Below, piece by piece: positions 11,755 through 64,000 of a DNA stretch of 64,000 nucleotides (positions within the stretch are counted from its first letter, which is position 1; the number at the start of each line of letters is the position of its first letter). Where the stretch lies: NCBI RefSeq assembly GCF_021390595.1, contig NZ_JAJEJR010000001.1:930001-994000 (forward strand), read 5' to 3'. The position numbers and the translations under genes were made by a program. This DNA comes from Paraburkholderia sp. HP33-1. GTDB taxonomy: Bacteria > Pseudomonadota > Gammaproteobacteria > Burkholderiales > Burkholderiaceae. The notes beneath the pieces were generated by a model. It was not told the origin of the DNA and did no database searches. It saw nothing but the letters and a program-made list of their open reading frames with translations.

Positions 11755-11951
11755 GGCACCTCCCTGAACGTGTATACGGCGGCGCGCGGCAAGACTTTAG
11801 GCCTTTTGACAAGAAATTTTCCTTGATCGCGCGTCGGCGCTCATCGATGGCGAGGCGCCGCCTGGGAGTAACCCGTGATCGCGATCATGGGCATTCCGCG
11901 CGCGGTGTGAGGCCTTTAGACTTGGCTCAATCCCACCAGGAGGTCGCGCCA

Positions 11952-43194: not shown

Positions 43195-45435
<2,241 letters not shown>

Positions 45436-45520
45436 CGTGACGCGTGAAGTGAGGTGATGGCGAGCCGCCAGTGGGCGGCTCGTCGCAGGGAAGGGCGGCG
45501 AGTGCCACCGGTGAGCGCGT

Positions 45521-46207
45521 TCAGTACTGCACGATGATCGCGACTCGCCGGTTCGCCGCTCTTGCCGCCGCGTCATCGCCTGCGACCAGCGGGAAATTGT
45601 CCGCCCGCCCGATCGCGGCCAGCCGATGCGGCTCGATTCCGCGCTCGACCAGATACCTGACCACCGCCCCCGCGCGAGCCGAGGACAGCTCCCAGTTGGA
45701 CACATACTTCGCGGTCGAAATCGGCACACTGTCGGTATGCCCTTCGACGAGCACATTCCCGGTCGCATCCTTTTGCAGTACCTGCGCGATCTGATTCAGT
45801 ACCTCGAACGAATCCGGCAGAAGCCGCGCATCGCCGGCGTTGAACAGGATCTTCGCGTTGACGCCGATTTCGACGCCGTGCGGCAGGTCCGTCACCGTGA
45901 TCAGCCCCTTCTCGCGCAGCGCATCGAGCAATGCGCTCAGCCGCTTGCGCGCTTCCTGTTGCGTGGCGCCCGCCGGCGCGGGCGTGCTCTGCTGCGCCGT
46001 TTTCGTTTCGAGCATCTGATACCTGAGCTCGAGTTGCTTCGATTTCGCCAACTGCAACACATACAGCGCGAGGAACAACACCATCATCGTCGTGATGAGG
46101 TCCGCGTACGAGATCAGCCAGCGGCCGCCCTCGGTGCCTTCGCCGCCGTGCCCGTCGCGCTCGTCGGCGCCGCTTGGCGGGCGTTTGCCGTCAGACGTCG
46201 TTTGCAT
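45521..46207 (-). CDS. MotB-like stator protein with OmpA peptidoglycan-binding domain
   Basis: 228 residues. A short cytoplasmic N-terminus is followed by the membrane helix WLISYADLITTMMVLFLALY, containing the stator proton-accepting Asp (about residue 36, equivalent to MotB Asp32). The C-terminal OmpA-type domain has VLVEGHTDSVPIS and ELSSARAGAVVRYLVERGI, which bind peptidoglycan. It completes a stator with the MotA-like protein 44 bases upstream. Domain order and both key features are intact, so it should anchor and conduct ions; the ion is not identifiable here. No flagellar genes other than this operon are in the window. Confidence 0.93.
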   Translation of the reverse strand: MQTTSDGKRPPSGADERDGHGGEGTEGGRWLISYADLITTMMVLFLALYVLQLAKSKQLELRYQMLETKTAQQSTPAPAGATQQEARKRLSALLDALREKGLITVTDLPHGVEIGVNAKILFNAGDARLLPDSFEVLNQIAQVLQKDATGNVLVEGHTDSVPISTAKYVSNWELSSARAGAVVRYLVERGIEPHRLAAIGRADNFPLVAGDDAAARAANRRVAIIVQY

Positions 46208-46251
46208 GGGTGATTAATCCGTTTCGAATGGCAGCGCGCTTCATGGCGGGC

Positions 46252-47016
46252 TCAGGCGAGCGACTCCGCCGCGCGCCCGCGCACCTCGCCCGTCAGGCGC
46301 GTCTCGATCGTATGCGGGGACTCCTTGCGTGAAATCGCGAGGAGCCCGTCGAGGTAGAGGCGGCGAAACCGCGCCTCGCTGTCGACCTGCGCCTGCAACT
46401 TGCCGTACAGCGGCAGAAACACCAGATTCGCGAGCGCGAGACCGTACAGCGTCGCGACGAACGCCGTCGCGATGCCCGAGCCGAGTTGCGCCGGGTCGAG
46501 AATGTGATTGGTGACCTGGATCAGCCCGAGCACCGAGCCGAGGATGCCGAACGTCGGCGCATAGCCGCCCGCCTGCTGCCACACGCGCGCGGCCGCCATG
46601 TGATTGCGCGCGTACGCATCGAGTTCGCGCTGCAGCGCGTCTTCGAGCACGGCGGTGGACACGCCGTTCGCGAGCAGTTCGAGCCCGCGTCTGGCGAATG
46701 GATGAATGCCGCTGACGTCCATCGATTCGAACGCGAGCAGGCCGTTGAGCTTTGCCTGGTCACCCCATTCGAGCAGATCCGCAAGACTCTTCTGGTCGAC
46801 CCGCCGCGCGCGCGTGAACGCGAGACCGAGCAGCTTCACCGCATCGAAGAAGCGCGCCCATGTGTTCTGGATCATCACCGCGCCGAGCGTACCGCCGAGC
46901 ACGATGACGAACGCTTCGTACTGGAACAGCGTCAGAAAATGCCCGCCTTCGAGCGCGAAGCCAAACACGATCGCCGCTCCGCCGAACAGCACACCGAATA
47001 ACGTCAACAGATCCAT
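46252..47016 (-). CDS. MotA-like stator protein
   Basis: 254 residues with four hydrophobic segments. MDLLTLFGVLFGGAAIVFGFALEGGH and FVIVLGGTLGAVMIQ form the first two, a long charged cytoplasmic loop follows, and APTFGILGSVLGLIQVTNHI and LGSGIATAFVATLYGLALANLV form the last two, containing the conserved Pro of MotA. Its sequence is closer to the PomA/MotC branch than to E. coli MotA. It is encoded 24 bases after a cyclic-nucleotide/FliG-like gene and 44 before the MotB-like gene, all on the minus strand. In flagellar motors the MotA cytoplasmic loop contacts FliG, whose counterpart here would be the upstream gene product. Confidence 0.93.
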   Translation of the reverse strand: MDLLTLFGVLFGGAAIVFGFALEGGHFLTLFQYEAFVIVLGGTLGAVMIQNTWARFFDAVKLLGLAFTRARRVDQKSLADLLEWGDQAKLNGLLAFESMDVSGIHPFARRGLELLANGVSTAVLEDALQRELDAYARNHMAAARVWQQAGGYAPTFGILGSVLGLIQVTNHILDPAQLGSGIATAFVATLYGLALANLVFLPLYGKLQAQVDSEARFRRLYLDGLLAISRKESPHTIETRLTGEVRGRAAESLA

Positions 47017-47040
47017 GCTTGTCCCCGAACCGCGCCGCGT

Positions 47041-48255
47041 TCACGCTGCCTTCAGCGTCTTCACCGCGTCGAGCAGCCGTTGCTCGATGTCACCGACTTC
47101 GACCGGATCGATCTTGATGTCGCGCCGCATCACCCACGACACTTCGTTGCGGCGCACTTCGGTCATCACCGACAGCAGGCGCTCGGCCACCGGCTGCCCG
47201 TCGATGCTGACGAGCAGCTTCGCGAGATCGTACGTATCGAAGCCGCTGACGACTTCGAACAGCGTGCGCTGGTCGACGAAGGCGAGATCGTCGAGCGAAT
47301 TGAGCGCGCCGCTCTGGCGCGTACTGCGTCGCGAGAAATAGGCGACGCCTTGCTGCTCGACATAGGTCAGCACCTTCGACTTGCGGAACGCGAAGAGTTC
47401 GTCGGCGATTTCGCCGTGCGACAGCTTGTTCAGGATCAACGTCTTGTCGACGCCGATCAACGCCTCCAGATCGGTCAGCTCGATCAGCTCGAGCTCGCTG
47501 CTCACCGCGATATCGAGCTCGCCTTCCGCGACCTGCTGCGCGCGATCGACGATGCGCGCGGCGTCGAACGTGACGACCTGGCGTGCGGCCGCGCCGTCAT
47601 ACGCCGAGTATTCGGTCGACACGTTATTTAGTTGTCCGGGCTGCGCGGCCTCGATCGTGACGAGGTTGAGCTTCTCCATGCGCTTGAGCATCGCCATCAC
47701 GTGCGGACGCGAATGGCCGGCAATCGCGCGACACTTCTTGATCACTTCGACGAGCGGCACCGAGATTTCCTCGCCCTGCGATTGCTGCGGCCGGCGTCCC
47801 CAGCTGTCGTTCGCATCGCGCCGTTCGCCGTTCGACATCAGTGTCAGCACGTGGGCATACGACAGCACGCCCGGCAGAAAATCGGCGTGCGTATAGGTCG
47901 CGAGCAGATCGTCCTTGCGCTTCACGCGACGAATCAACGTGCGTGTGATATGACGCAGCAACGGCGACACTCGCTCGATCTCTTCGTCGAGCATGCCGGT
48001 CGGTACGACGGTCAGTTGACAGAAGCTCAATGCCTTCGCCGTGTGGCTGCGCGGCTCGGCAGCGAGCAACGCGGCTTCCCCGAAGAATTCGCCACGGCCC
48101 AGCGTCGCGACGACGACCTTCTTGTCGTCGCAGCGAGTGGAAAGTTCGACCTTGCCTTCCGTGATCAGAAAAACGACGGACTCACCCGAGTAGCCCTCGG
48201 AATAGATGATCTCGCCGGGCGCCGCTGTGCGCGTCCACGACTGTTGCCGATTCAA
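47041..48255 (-). CDS. Crp-like cyclic-nucleotide-binding protein with FliG-like C-terminal domain
   Basis: 404 residues from a TTG start at 48255 preceded by AGGGG at 7 bases; further upstream codons are unconserved. Residues 10-85 are a cNMP-binding domain (PGEIIYSEGYSGESVVFLITE and the cassette GEFFGEAALLAAEPRSHTA). Residues about 155-200 resemble a winged-helix (SVPLVEVIKKCRAIAG, VMAMLKRMEKLNLVTIE). The last 85 residues (LDDLAFVDQRTLFEVVSGFD, LLSVMTEVRRNEVSWVMRRD, PVEVGDIEQRLLDAVKTLK) align with the C-terminal ARM domain of flagellar rotor protein FliG, pattern V-D-x-R, M-[ST]-x-R, V-x-[LV]-x-[DQ]-[IV]-E. It precedes a MotA-like gene, so it may be the sensor/rotor half of a stator module. 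The FliG match is by eye. Confidence 0.85.
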   Translation of the reverse strand: MNRQQSWTRTAAPGEIIYSEGYSGESVVFLITEGKVELSTRCDDKKVVVATLGRGEFFGEAALLAAEPRSHTAKALSFCQLTVVPTGMLDEEIERVSPLLRHITRTLIRRVKRKDDLLATYTHADFLPGVLSYAHVLTLMSNGERRDANDSWGRRPQQSQGEEISVPLVEVIKKCRAIAGHSRPHVMAMLKRMEKLNLVTIEAAQPGQLNNVSTEYSAYDGAAARQVVTFDAARIVDRAQQVAEGELDIAVSSELELIELTDLEALIGVDKTLILNKLSHGEIADELFAFRKSKVLTYVEQQGVAYFSRRSTRQSGALNSLDDLAFVDQRTLFEVVSGFDTYDLAKLLVSIDGQPVAERLLSVMTEVRRNEVSWVMRRDIKIDPVEVGDIEQRLLDAVKTLKAA

Positions 48256-48657
48256 AGTATTTCCCCTGCAGCGCTGTTTTGTCGTTGCGGCTGTGCGACG
48301 CGGCGCATTGCATCGCATGGGGCGACAGCCATTCCCCTTACGCACGTTTACGACATTGGGCAGGGACTCTTTAACGGGCGGGAGAGGGTCGGATCGGGAG
48401 GAAAACGCGCTGCAAGTCGCGTTTGGAAGCGGAGAACCGCGATAAAACGCCAGGTGAATCGTTTGCGCGTGGCGTAATGGCGCATGTATGCCGCGACCCG
48501 GCGGCCGGCAAATTTTTTTATGACCACGGTTCGAAAGCATTTGCCTGGGAGTCCGTTGGAAGCAGTTGATGAACGGTCGATTTGAATGAGCGGGCCGCAG
48601 CGAATGCTATGCTCTCGTTCGACCAAAAATATTGCGCCTATGGCGCGACATCCGCAC
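48256..48657. other. Divergent intergenic region
   Basis: 402 bases between two divergent genes, holding the promoters of the stator operon and of the methyltransferase-like gene. An open extension of the cNMP/FliG frame to 48540 has no family similarity and reads as chance. A CCGGCGGCCGG stretch followed by seven T at about 48494-48519 could be a weak terminator on the plus strand. No FliA-type (GCCGATAA) promoter found by eye. Confidence 0.35.
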
Positions 48658-49593
48658 ATGACGAAACTGATCAGGCGCGCTTCGGCCGAAGCGCGCGCTT
48701 TCCGCAACCGGGACGCCGAAGCTATCGGCGGTAAGCAGAAAATGGCGCACAAAAAGGCGCCAAAACCCACGCACAATGCGAGCGGCACCGTCGACCACGA
48801 CGTTCACGACGCACCGCAAATCGAAGCACCGCGCAAGCCGCGTTTCGCGCCGGTGACGTTCTCCGAAGAGGGCGGCGTGCGCTTCCTGCATTTCGGCACG
48901 GAATGGGTGCAAGGCGCGATGCGTCTGCGCAAGCCCGATCACATCGAACTCGAATACGCGCAGCAGATGATGGCCTGGCTGCTGTTCCTCGAAACGCCGA
49001 AGCGCATCGTGCAGCTCGGGCTCGGCGCGGCGTCGCTGACCAAGTTCGCGCACCGCTTCCTGAAGGGCGCCAAGGTCGAGGCCGTCGAATTGAATCCGGC
49101 GGTCGTGGTGGCCGCGCACACGATGTTCGAGCTGCCGCCCGACGATGCGCGTCTGACCGTGCACGAAACCGATGCGTGGGACTTCGTCAACGAGCGCGCG
49201 AACCACGGCACGATCGGTGCGCTGCAGATCGACATCTACGATGCGACCGCGCGCGGCCCGGTGCTCGATAGCGTCGGGTTTTACCGCGCGGCGCGCGCGT
49301 GCCTGACCGAGGCGGGCATCGCCACGGTGAACCTGTTCGGCGATCATCCGAGCTTCGTGCGCAACATGAAGCGTCTGAACGAAGCCTTCGACGGCCGCGT
49401 CGTCGCGCTGCCCGAAGTACACGACGGCAACCGCATCGCGATCGCGTTCTCGGGCCCCGCGCTCGACGTGCCGTACGGCGCGCTCGAGGCGCGCGCGAAG
49501 CTGATCGAAGCCGAGCTCGGCTTGCCGGCGCGCAAGTGGATCAAGGGTTTGCGCGAATCGACGGGGCAGACGGGCGCATCGTTTGCGATCTGA
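48658..49593 (+). CDS. Spermidine-synthase-like SAM-dependent methyltransferase-fold protein
   Basis: 311 residues. The Rossmann core resembles spermidine synthases: IVQLGLGAASLTKFAHRFL (SAM motif I), KVEAVELNPAVVVAAHTMFE (acidic strand), then ARLTVHETDAWDFV and GALQIDIYDATARGP. The first about 80 residues are basic and unconserved. Catalytic residues for polyamine transfer are not obvious, so the role is unknown. Start is uncertain: in-frame ATGs at 48586, 48640, 48658 and 48742 are possible, none with a strong ribosome site. Confidence 0.82.
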   Translation: MTKLIRRASAEARAFRNRDAEAIGGKQKMAHKKAPKPTHNASGTVDHDVHDAPQIEAPRKPRFAPVTFSEEGGVRFLHFGTEWVQGAMRLRKPDHIELEYAQQMMAWLLFLETPKRIVQLGLGAASLTKFAHRFLKGAKVEAVELNPAVVVAAHTMFELPPDDARLTVHETDAWDFVNERANHGTIGALQIDIYDATARGPVLDSVGFYRAARACLTEAGIATVNLFGDHPSFVRNMKRLNEAFDGRVVALPEVHDGNRIAIAFSGPALDVPYGALEARAKLIEAELGLPARKWIKGLRESTGQTGASFAI

Positions 49594-63763: not shown

Positions 63764-64000
63764 TCATGCTAGCGGCGATGCTGCTGCGCCGCTATCAGGG
63801 CTTGCCTGAGCCTCAAGCTCCAGCGAGCGGATGCCGTTATGCGGCGGATGACCGGTCGCCTGGGCCATCTCCTGCTCGTGCTTCATCAGGTTCAGTCCGG
63901 TGTGGACGAGCGCCACGTGCGAAAACGCTTGCGGGAAATTGCCGACCAGACGTTTTTCGACCGGGTCGTACTCCTCGGACAGCAGGCCGACGTCGTTGCA
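63764..64000 (-). CDS. C-terminal part of a GH15-family glucoamylase/trehalase-like protein
   Basis: 79 codons including the stop, extending beyond the right edge. CNDVGLLSEEYDPVEKRLVG and FPQAFSHVALVHTGLNL are the C-terminal signature of bacterial GH15 glucan/trehalose-hydrolysing enzymes, in which the Gly-Asn-Phe-Pro-Gln-Ala-Phe-Ser-His motif is conserved. The tail after residue 50 is unconserved. The substrate (glucose polymer or trehalose) cannot be told from this fragment. Confidence 0.88.
   Translation of the reverse strand, partial: CNDVGLLSEEYDPVEKRLVGNFPQAFSHVALVHTGLNLMKHEQEMAQATGHPPHNGIRSLELEAQASPDSGAAASPLA

Follow-up and report, generated by a model that had tools for sequence, protein, structure and literature searches.

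A cyclic-nucleotide sensor with a predicted FliG-like domain is linked to MotA/MotB stator genes in Burkholderiaceae

Introduction

What does a cyclic-nucleotide sensor that ends in a domain resembling the flagellar rotor protein FliG do at the head of a stator operon? The question is raised by a locus in Paraburkholderia sp. HP33-1, in a 64-kb window (contig NZ_JAJEJR010000001.1, positions 930,001 to 994,000 of the forward strand; positions below count from its first base). Three minus-strand genes with intergenic gaps of 24 and 44 bases encode the sensor, a MotA-family and a MotB-family protein (Table 1). A first-pass annotation, made from the DNA alone, suggested a stand-alone, ligand-gated stator module, perhaps one that regulates or replaces rotor contacts, or an ion channel under cNMP control (cNMP, cyclic mononucleotide). 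The closest relatives of the locus are in Paraburkholderia sprentiae, podalyriae, tuberum and others, at 93-95% identity.

We propose, with a probability of roughly 0.5, that the operon encodes a sigma-28-controlled auxiliary stator set together with a dedicated partner, responsive to cNMP, that gates stator engagement. Four features are shown at the level of genome sequence: the domain content, the near-obligate linkage of the genes, a promoter motif and co-occurrence with FliG.

Conservation of the module

Linkage was examined in 98 sensor loci (L002-L099), from fetches that overlap in species. MotA and MotB adjoin the sensor in 97 of them; the exception is L097, in which the sensor match begins at the contig edge, with a 51-residue piece of MotA and no MotB. 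In the 30 short loci, L002-L031, the MotB match extends to the end of the locus, and in L080 MotB lies about 1 kb further on. The sensor is in two pieces in L096, as are both sensor and MotB in L082. When the open reading frames (ORFs) of 65 loci were clustered, the three operon genes were constant (65, 65 and 64 loci), and the next neighbour, a chemoreceptor-type cluster, reached 17; the clusters also include other-frame ORFs of the same three genes. The flanks of the trio vary between loci.

Across 299 genomes of the family, a sensor match was found in 73, comprising 72 orthologues and one distant homologue (G339). An orthologous MotA, with at least 68% identity, is present in 72/72 genomes with a sensor orthologue, and the same MotA without the sensor was seen only in G561, as contig-end fragments. 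G433 and G521 carry a different MotA (36-37% identity). The order sensor-MotA-MotB is also kept in the distant Gammaproteobacteria L139, L140 and L142. Gene order is conserved far beyond chance, and an accidental neighbourhood can be rejected on the adjacency, the constant clusters and the paired orthologues. The trio is, judged by its genomic context, a conserved module whose linkage is near-obligate.

The distant homologue in G339 (L100:5429-6583) has about 34% identity, comes from the same family and has no adjacent stator genes; a gene for a VpsR-domain sigma-54 activator lies upstream of it.

Wider samples were searched for the sensor as well. The order sample gave 2 of 300 genomes, own genome included, and the class sample 73 of 321 at 1e-8, likewise with the own genome. 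Among the class matches listed, only G704, G819, G820 and G693, besides the own genome, reach past profile position 202. Five of the remaining class matches, scanned with Pfam, are proteins in which a cyclic-nucleotide-binding domain (CNBD) is fused to EAL (L143, L144, L145, L147, L152), a fusion as in Bd1971. At 1e-15 there were matches in 107 of 299 genomes sampled from the phylum, and among the matches listed those outside the own genome end by position 205.

Domains of the sensor protein

The fusion itself is real. Pfam matches the N-terminus to the cyclic-nucleotide-binding domain at 7.8e-19, so that the hallmark of the CRP/FNR type is present, and this domain would bind cNMP. For the C-terminus, which the first-pass annotation had aligned by eye with FliG, Pfam does match FliG_C at residues 320-403, but below threshold in the single protein (E 0.017; 15.8 of 23.3 bits). 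A profile search of the PDB returned FliG-type chains only, and in a further search all of the matches listed that cover residues 316-404 are FliG. The domain is predicted to adopt the FliG_C fold. Pfam gave no match to FliG_N or FliG_M up to E 10, the CNBD standing in their place, and none to PilZ, the mark of the YcgR class, at the same limit. With a model of the middle region, Foldseek found no match at E <= 0.001.

Table 1. Coordinates of the operon, its promoter motif and the domains of the sensor protein within the window
Feature	Position	Strand	Remarks
cNMP-binding protein with C-terminal FliG_C-like domain (sensor)	47041..48255	-	404 aa, TTG start at 48255
Cyclic-nucleotide-binding domain, residues ~1-115	47911..48255	-	FGE (58-60) and R69 of the phosphate-binding cassette
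Winged-helix-like region, residues ~118-232	47560..47904	-	
Second helical segment, residues ~235-300, possibly a second helix-turn-helix as in Bd2879	47356..47553	-	weak
FliG_C-like (ARM_C) domain, residues 316-404, plus stop	47041..47310	-	
MotA-family stator subunit, MotC-type	46252..47016	-	Pfam; NCBIfam PRK09109
MotB-family stator subunit, plug and OmpA peptidoglycan-binding domain	45521..46207	-	Pfam; alignment to solved MotB
Sigma-28 (FliA)-like promoter, TAAAG-N14-GTCGTAA	48348..48373	-	first base at -118 from the sensor start codon

Identity of the stator subunits

The partner genes have the hallmarks of a complete stator, with MotA_ExbB and MotA_N in MotA and the plug, the transmembrane Asp and the OmpA domain in MotB, in line with the original description. 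MotA passes the cut-off of NCBIfam PRK09109, which we take to be the MotC-type model (247.6 bits against 237). MotB stays below the MotD cut-off (PRK09038; 174 against 283), so that the pair passes only one of the two equivalog cut-offs for MotCD. The charged residues of the MotA cytoplasmic loop are R90 and E98 in Escherichia coli; their counterparts K89 and E97 are conserved in 66/66 partner MotA sequences, and three distant MotAs have the loop Glu but lack the basic residue. Models of ZorB match MotB (best 1.4e-21), and those of ZorA do not match MotA at E <= 1; a Zorya-type defence system (ZorAB) was rejected on the missing ZorA match.

A sigma-28-like promoter and the link to flagella

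Upstream regions were first scored with what we took as the E. coli sigma-28 consensus. Scores were modest (window p ~0.12 against shuffles, alone not significant), yet they fell at the same place in most loci. A relaxed pattern, T[AC]AAG-N13-16-G[TCA]CG[TA][TA]A, set after this first scoring had been seen, occurs at -84 to -148 in 65/65 upstream regions (the window and 64 loci; L088, L096, L097 and L098 were omitted because of their start positions). Over all these loci it matches 76 times in 2.3 million strand-bases, including the 65. Unchanged, it was then found at -81 to -148 in 31/31 further loci (L003-L031, L088, L096), beside the window's own copy L002; L097 and L098 have no upstream DNA. 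The two sets overlap in species and the species are related, so that the counts are not independent. The spacers have diverged (14 bases in 22 regions, 15 in 43; 48 distinct) and the promoter boxes have not. When 22 chosen upstream regions were aligned, the blocks that stood out as conserved were the two boxes and a ribosome-binding GGGGA. No CRP-type TGTGA operator was found in the 65 upstream regions of 260 bases.

In the own genome, the plain pattern finds nothing ahead of the flagellar genes, but a matrix derived from the operon sites matches 73 bp upstream of motA (14.8 bits), 118 bp upstream of fliC (12.8 bits) and 85 bp upstream of flgK (12.9 bits; genes identified by NCBIfam). A sigma-28-like site also stands at -113 before the L100 gene. 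We infer that the operon uses sigma-28.

Of the 73 family genomes that carry the sensor, 72 have FliG, against 157 of 226 others, a comparison confounded by descent. The sensor genome without a FliG match is G533, in which the sensor gene is broken into two frames, and so is the MotB gene. This genome (L082/L157) is a metagenome-assembled symbiont genome, apparently of the uncultured Paraburkholderia symbiont Vsou, and its MotA frame and promoter motif remain.

These data bear on a flagellum-independent motor, in which MotA and MotB would drive, or be gated by, the FliG_C-like protein, which would serve as a rotor of its own or regulate an ion channel. In its favour, some 2.3 Mb of contig C1 separate the operon from fliG and fliC, and the operon unites sensor, FliG_C-like domain and stator. 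The sigma-28-like promoter, the co-occurrence with FliG, the split genes in the FliG-less genome, the lost torque charges (see below) and the missing FliG_N and FliG_M matches all speak against such a motor, which we consider very unlikely. On genomic evidence the operon is not independent of flagella, and the label 'stand-alone' is not supported in view of the promoter motif in 65/65 and 31/31 loci and of the FliG distribution.

Proposed mechanism and the FliG-like face

In the gated-stator reading, a MotC-type MotA/MotB auxiliary stator would be made with the late flagellar genes from the sigma-28 promoter, and a soluble regulator would be delivered with it. The N-terminal domain of the regulator would bind a 3',5'-cyclic mononucleotide, and binding would alter the docking of the FliG_C-like domain where stator and rotor meet, on the MotA loop or the C-ring. 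FliG_C normally sits at the MotA cytoplasmic loop, and that loop would be the simplest docking site. By analogy with the action of cyclic di-GMP (c-di-GMP) through YcgR, FlgZ, MotI and MotL, the change in docking may bring the auxiliary stators into the motor or take them out of it. Both the docking site and the direction of control, as brake or recruiter, are presumed here. The first-pass annotation is partly supported: its ligand-gated module fits this reading, and the fusion and the conserved gene order are borne out, whereas the stand-alone status is not supported and a replacement of rotor contacts is disfavoured.

Several observations weigh against the proposal. Sensor positions were mapped to FliG by HMMER alignment to the own genome's FliG, and alignment A5 holds 44 close Burkholderiaceae rows and 16 distant ones. 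We take the charges of the FliG torque helix to be K264, R281, D288, D289 and R297 (E. coli numbering). None of the five is kept in 44/44 close rows, where K264 is replaced by A/S/V/T, R281 by A/T/V, D288 by W, D289 by V/I/L and R297 by D/N; the distant rows keep K264 in 11, R281 in 12, D288 in 5, and D289 and R297 in none. With all five replaced, the known charge pairs cannot be used for docking on MotA. The winged-helix-like middle would be unneeded in a pure motor regulator. Among the genomes, the MotA frame of G541 has an in-frame TAG, L141 and L100 have no adjacent MotA, and the regions ahead of the distant L139, L140 and L141 genes gave no sigma-28-like site, that of L142 only a poor one. 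The operon-trained matrix is also not exclusive: the other three of its top six matches in the flagellar regions overlie long ORFs (best 17.4 bits), and it matches elsewhere in the window, with 20.1 bits at 63812 (+) and 14.8 at 11800 (-). The match at 63812 lies inside a minus-strand ORF and is likely due to chance.

Four residues on the former torque helix of the sensor, R368, W374, R377 and R378, are invariant in 44/44 close rows, so that this surface is constrained rather than free. This suggests that the interface with the stator has been re-built and may not copy the torque contact. A replacement rotor, as the first-pass annotation had considered, is disfavoured because all five torque residues are changed. 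The same constrained surface argues against a divergent ARM-type helical domain kept as a fold only, for which the likeness to FliG_C and the proximity to stator genes would be coincidental or relics. This too appears improbable, given the stator linkage in both Burkholderiaceae and distant Gammaproteobacteria and the exclusively FliG-type PDB matches.

Because a winged-helix-like region occupies the middle of the sensor, a role as a transcription factor must be weighed, and a factor tethered to the motor is the main rival of the gated-stator reading. The sensor would then be mainly CRP-like: its winged helix would bind DNA, cNMP would set its activity, and the FliG_C-like domain would tether it to idle stators or to the rotor, linking motor state to gene expression. 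We regard this as possible but doubtful. A more specific form, a cAMP-responsive factor kept at the motor by a rotor-mimic domain, captured by idle stators and released by engaged ones so that the state of the stators is passed straight on to gene expression, seems unlikely.

Comparison with known systems

Among second-messenger regulators that act where stator and rotor meet, the well-studied ones sense c-di-GMP with PilZ domains. The sensor differs from YcgR, FlgZ, MotI and MotL in having a CNBD, predicted for 3',5'-cNMP, and a docking module that resembles FliG itself. What they share is that a second-messenger protein acts on the stator or the rotor (in the case of the sensor, by proposal): according to the excerpted text of one source, YcgR acts at MotA/FliG, MotI on MotA and FlgZ on MotC, and the MotL gene lies 34 bp after motB (PMC8203827). 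The sensor also differs from the C-terminal domain of FliG, in the missing FliG_N/FliG_M matches and in the five torque residues changed in close rows.

Bd2879 of Bdellovibrio (PDB 9sfa) likewise has a CNBD followed by winged-helix regions over its first ~300 residues; in Bd2879 the phosphate and ribose contacts are replaced, whereas the sensor here keeps them, and the available passages of the source describe no FliG_C domain and mention no stator genes (PMC12750041). Foldseek aligned 315 columns of the two proteins at TM 0.25, a weak match, and residues ~235-300 were barely covered in a further comparison.

The MotCD stators of Pseudomonas resemble the pair described here in that MotA passes the PRK09109 cut-off; they differ in that MotB misses the MotD cut-off and a sensor gene leads the operon. 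For Burkholderia terrae BS001, three motA/motB pairs, no MotCD homologue and no regulator are reported in the part of the paper available (PMC5462819). The excerpts of three expression studies contain no recognisable second motA/motB or sensor gene (PMC3155924, PMC2830190, PMC3734258). No description of this combination was found in open-licence PMC full texts, nor, among the matches listed, in a broader set of titles and abstract beginnings, which agrees with the first impression that it is undescribed.

An extra stator pair with a sensor/rotor-domain look-alike in many Burkholderia relatives suggests an undescribed mode of motor control. If true, a second chemical signal would reach the motor in a large group of bacteria (soil dwellers, symbionts of plants and opportunists), through a cAMP/cGMP-type sensor with its own stator. 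The system would also provide a naturally occurring, soluble variant of FliG_C for work on rotor recognition by stators, and a testable reason for two stator sets in some species.

Further observations

An Rfam scan of positions 45000-49000 of the window gave no RNA element at the gathering score. Two metagenome proteins, P0145 and P0148 (the latter annotated as F420-non-reducing hydrogenase small subunit), each combine a CNBD with PF01058. In 15/65 loci (including L041, L038, L039 and L040), MotB is followed at 0.1-2.1 kb by a chemoreceptor-type gene with the same orientation, in 4 of them within 160 bp; the two genes scanned have an MCP signalling domain. Paraburkholderia sp. PGU19 carries the module on a plasmid of 853 kb that is mobilizable (L193:3901-8833), with a chemoreceptor gene just upstream.
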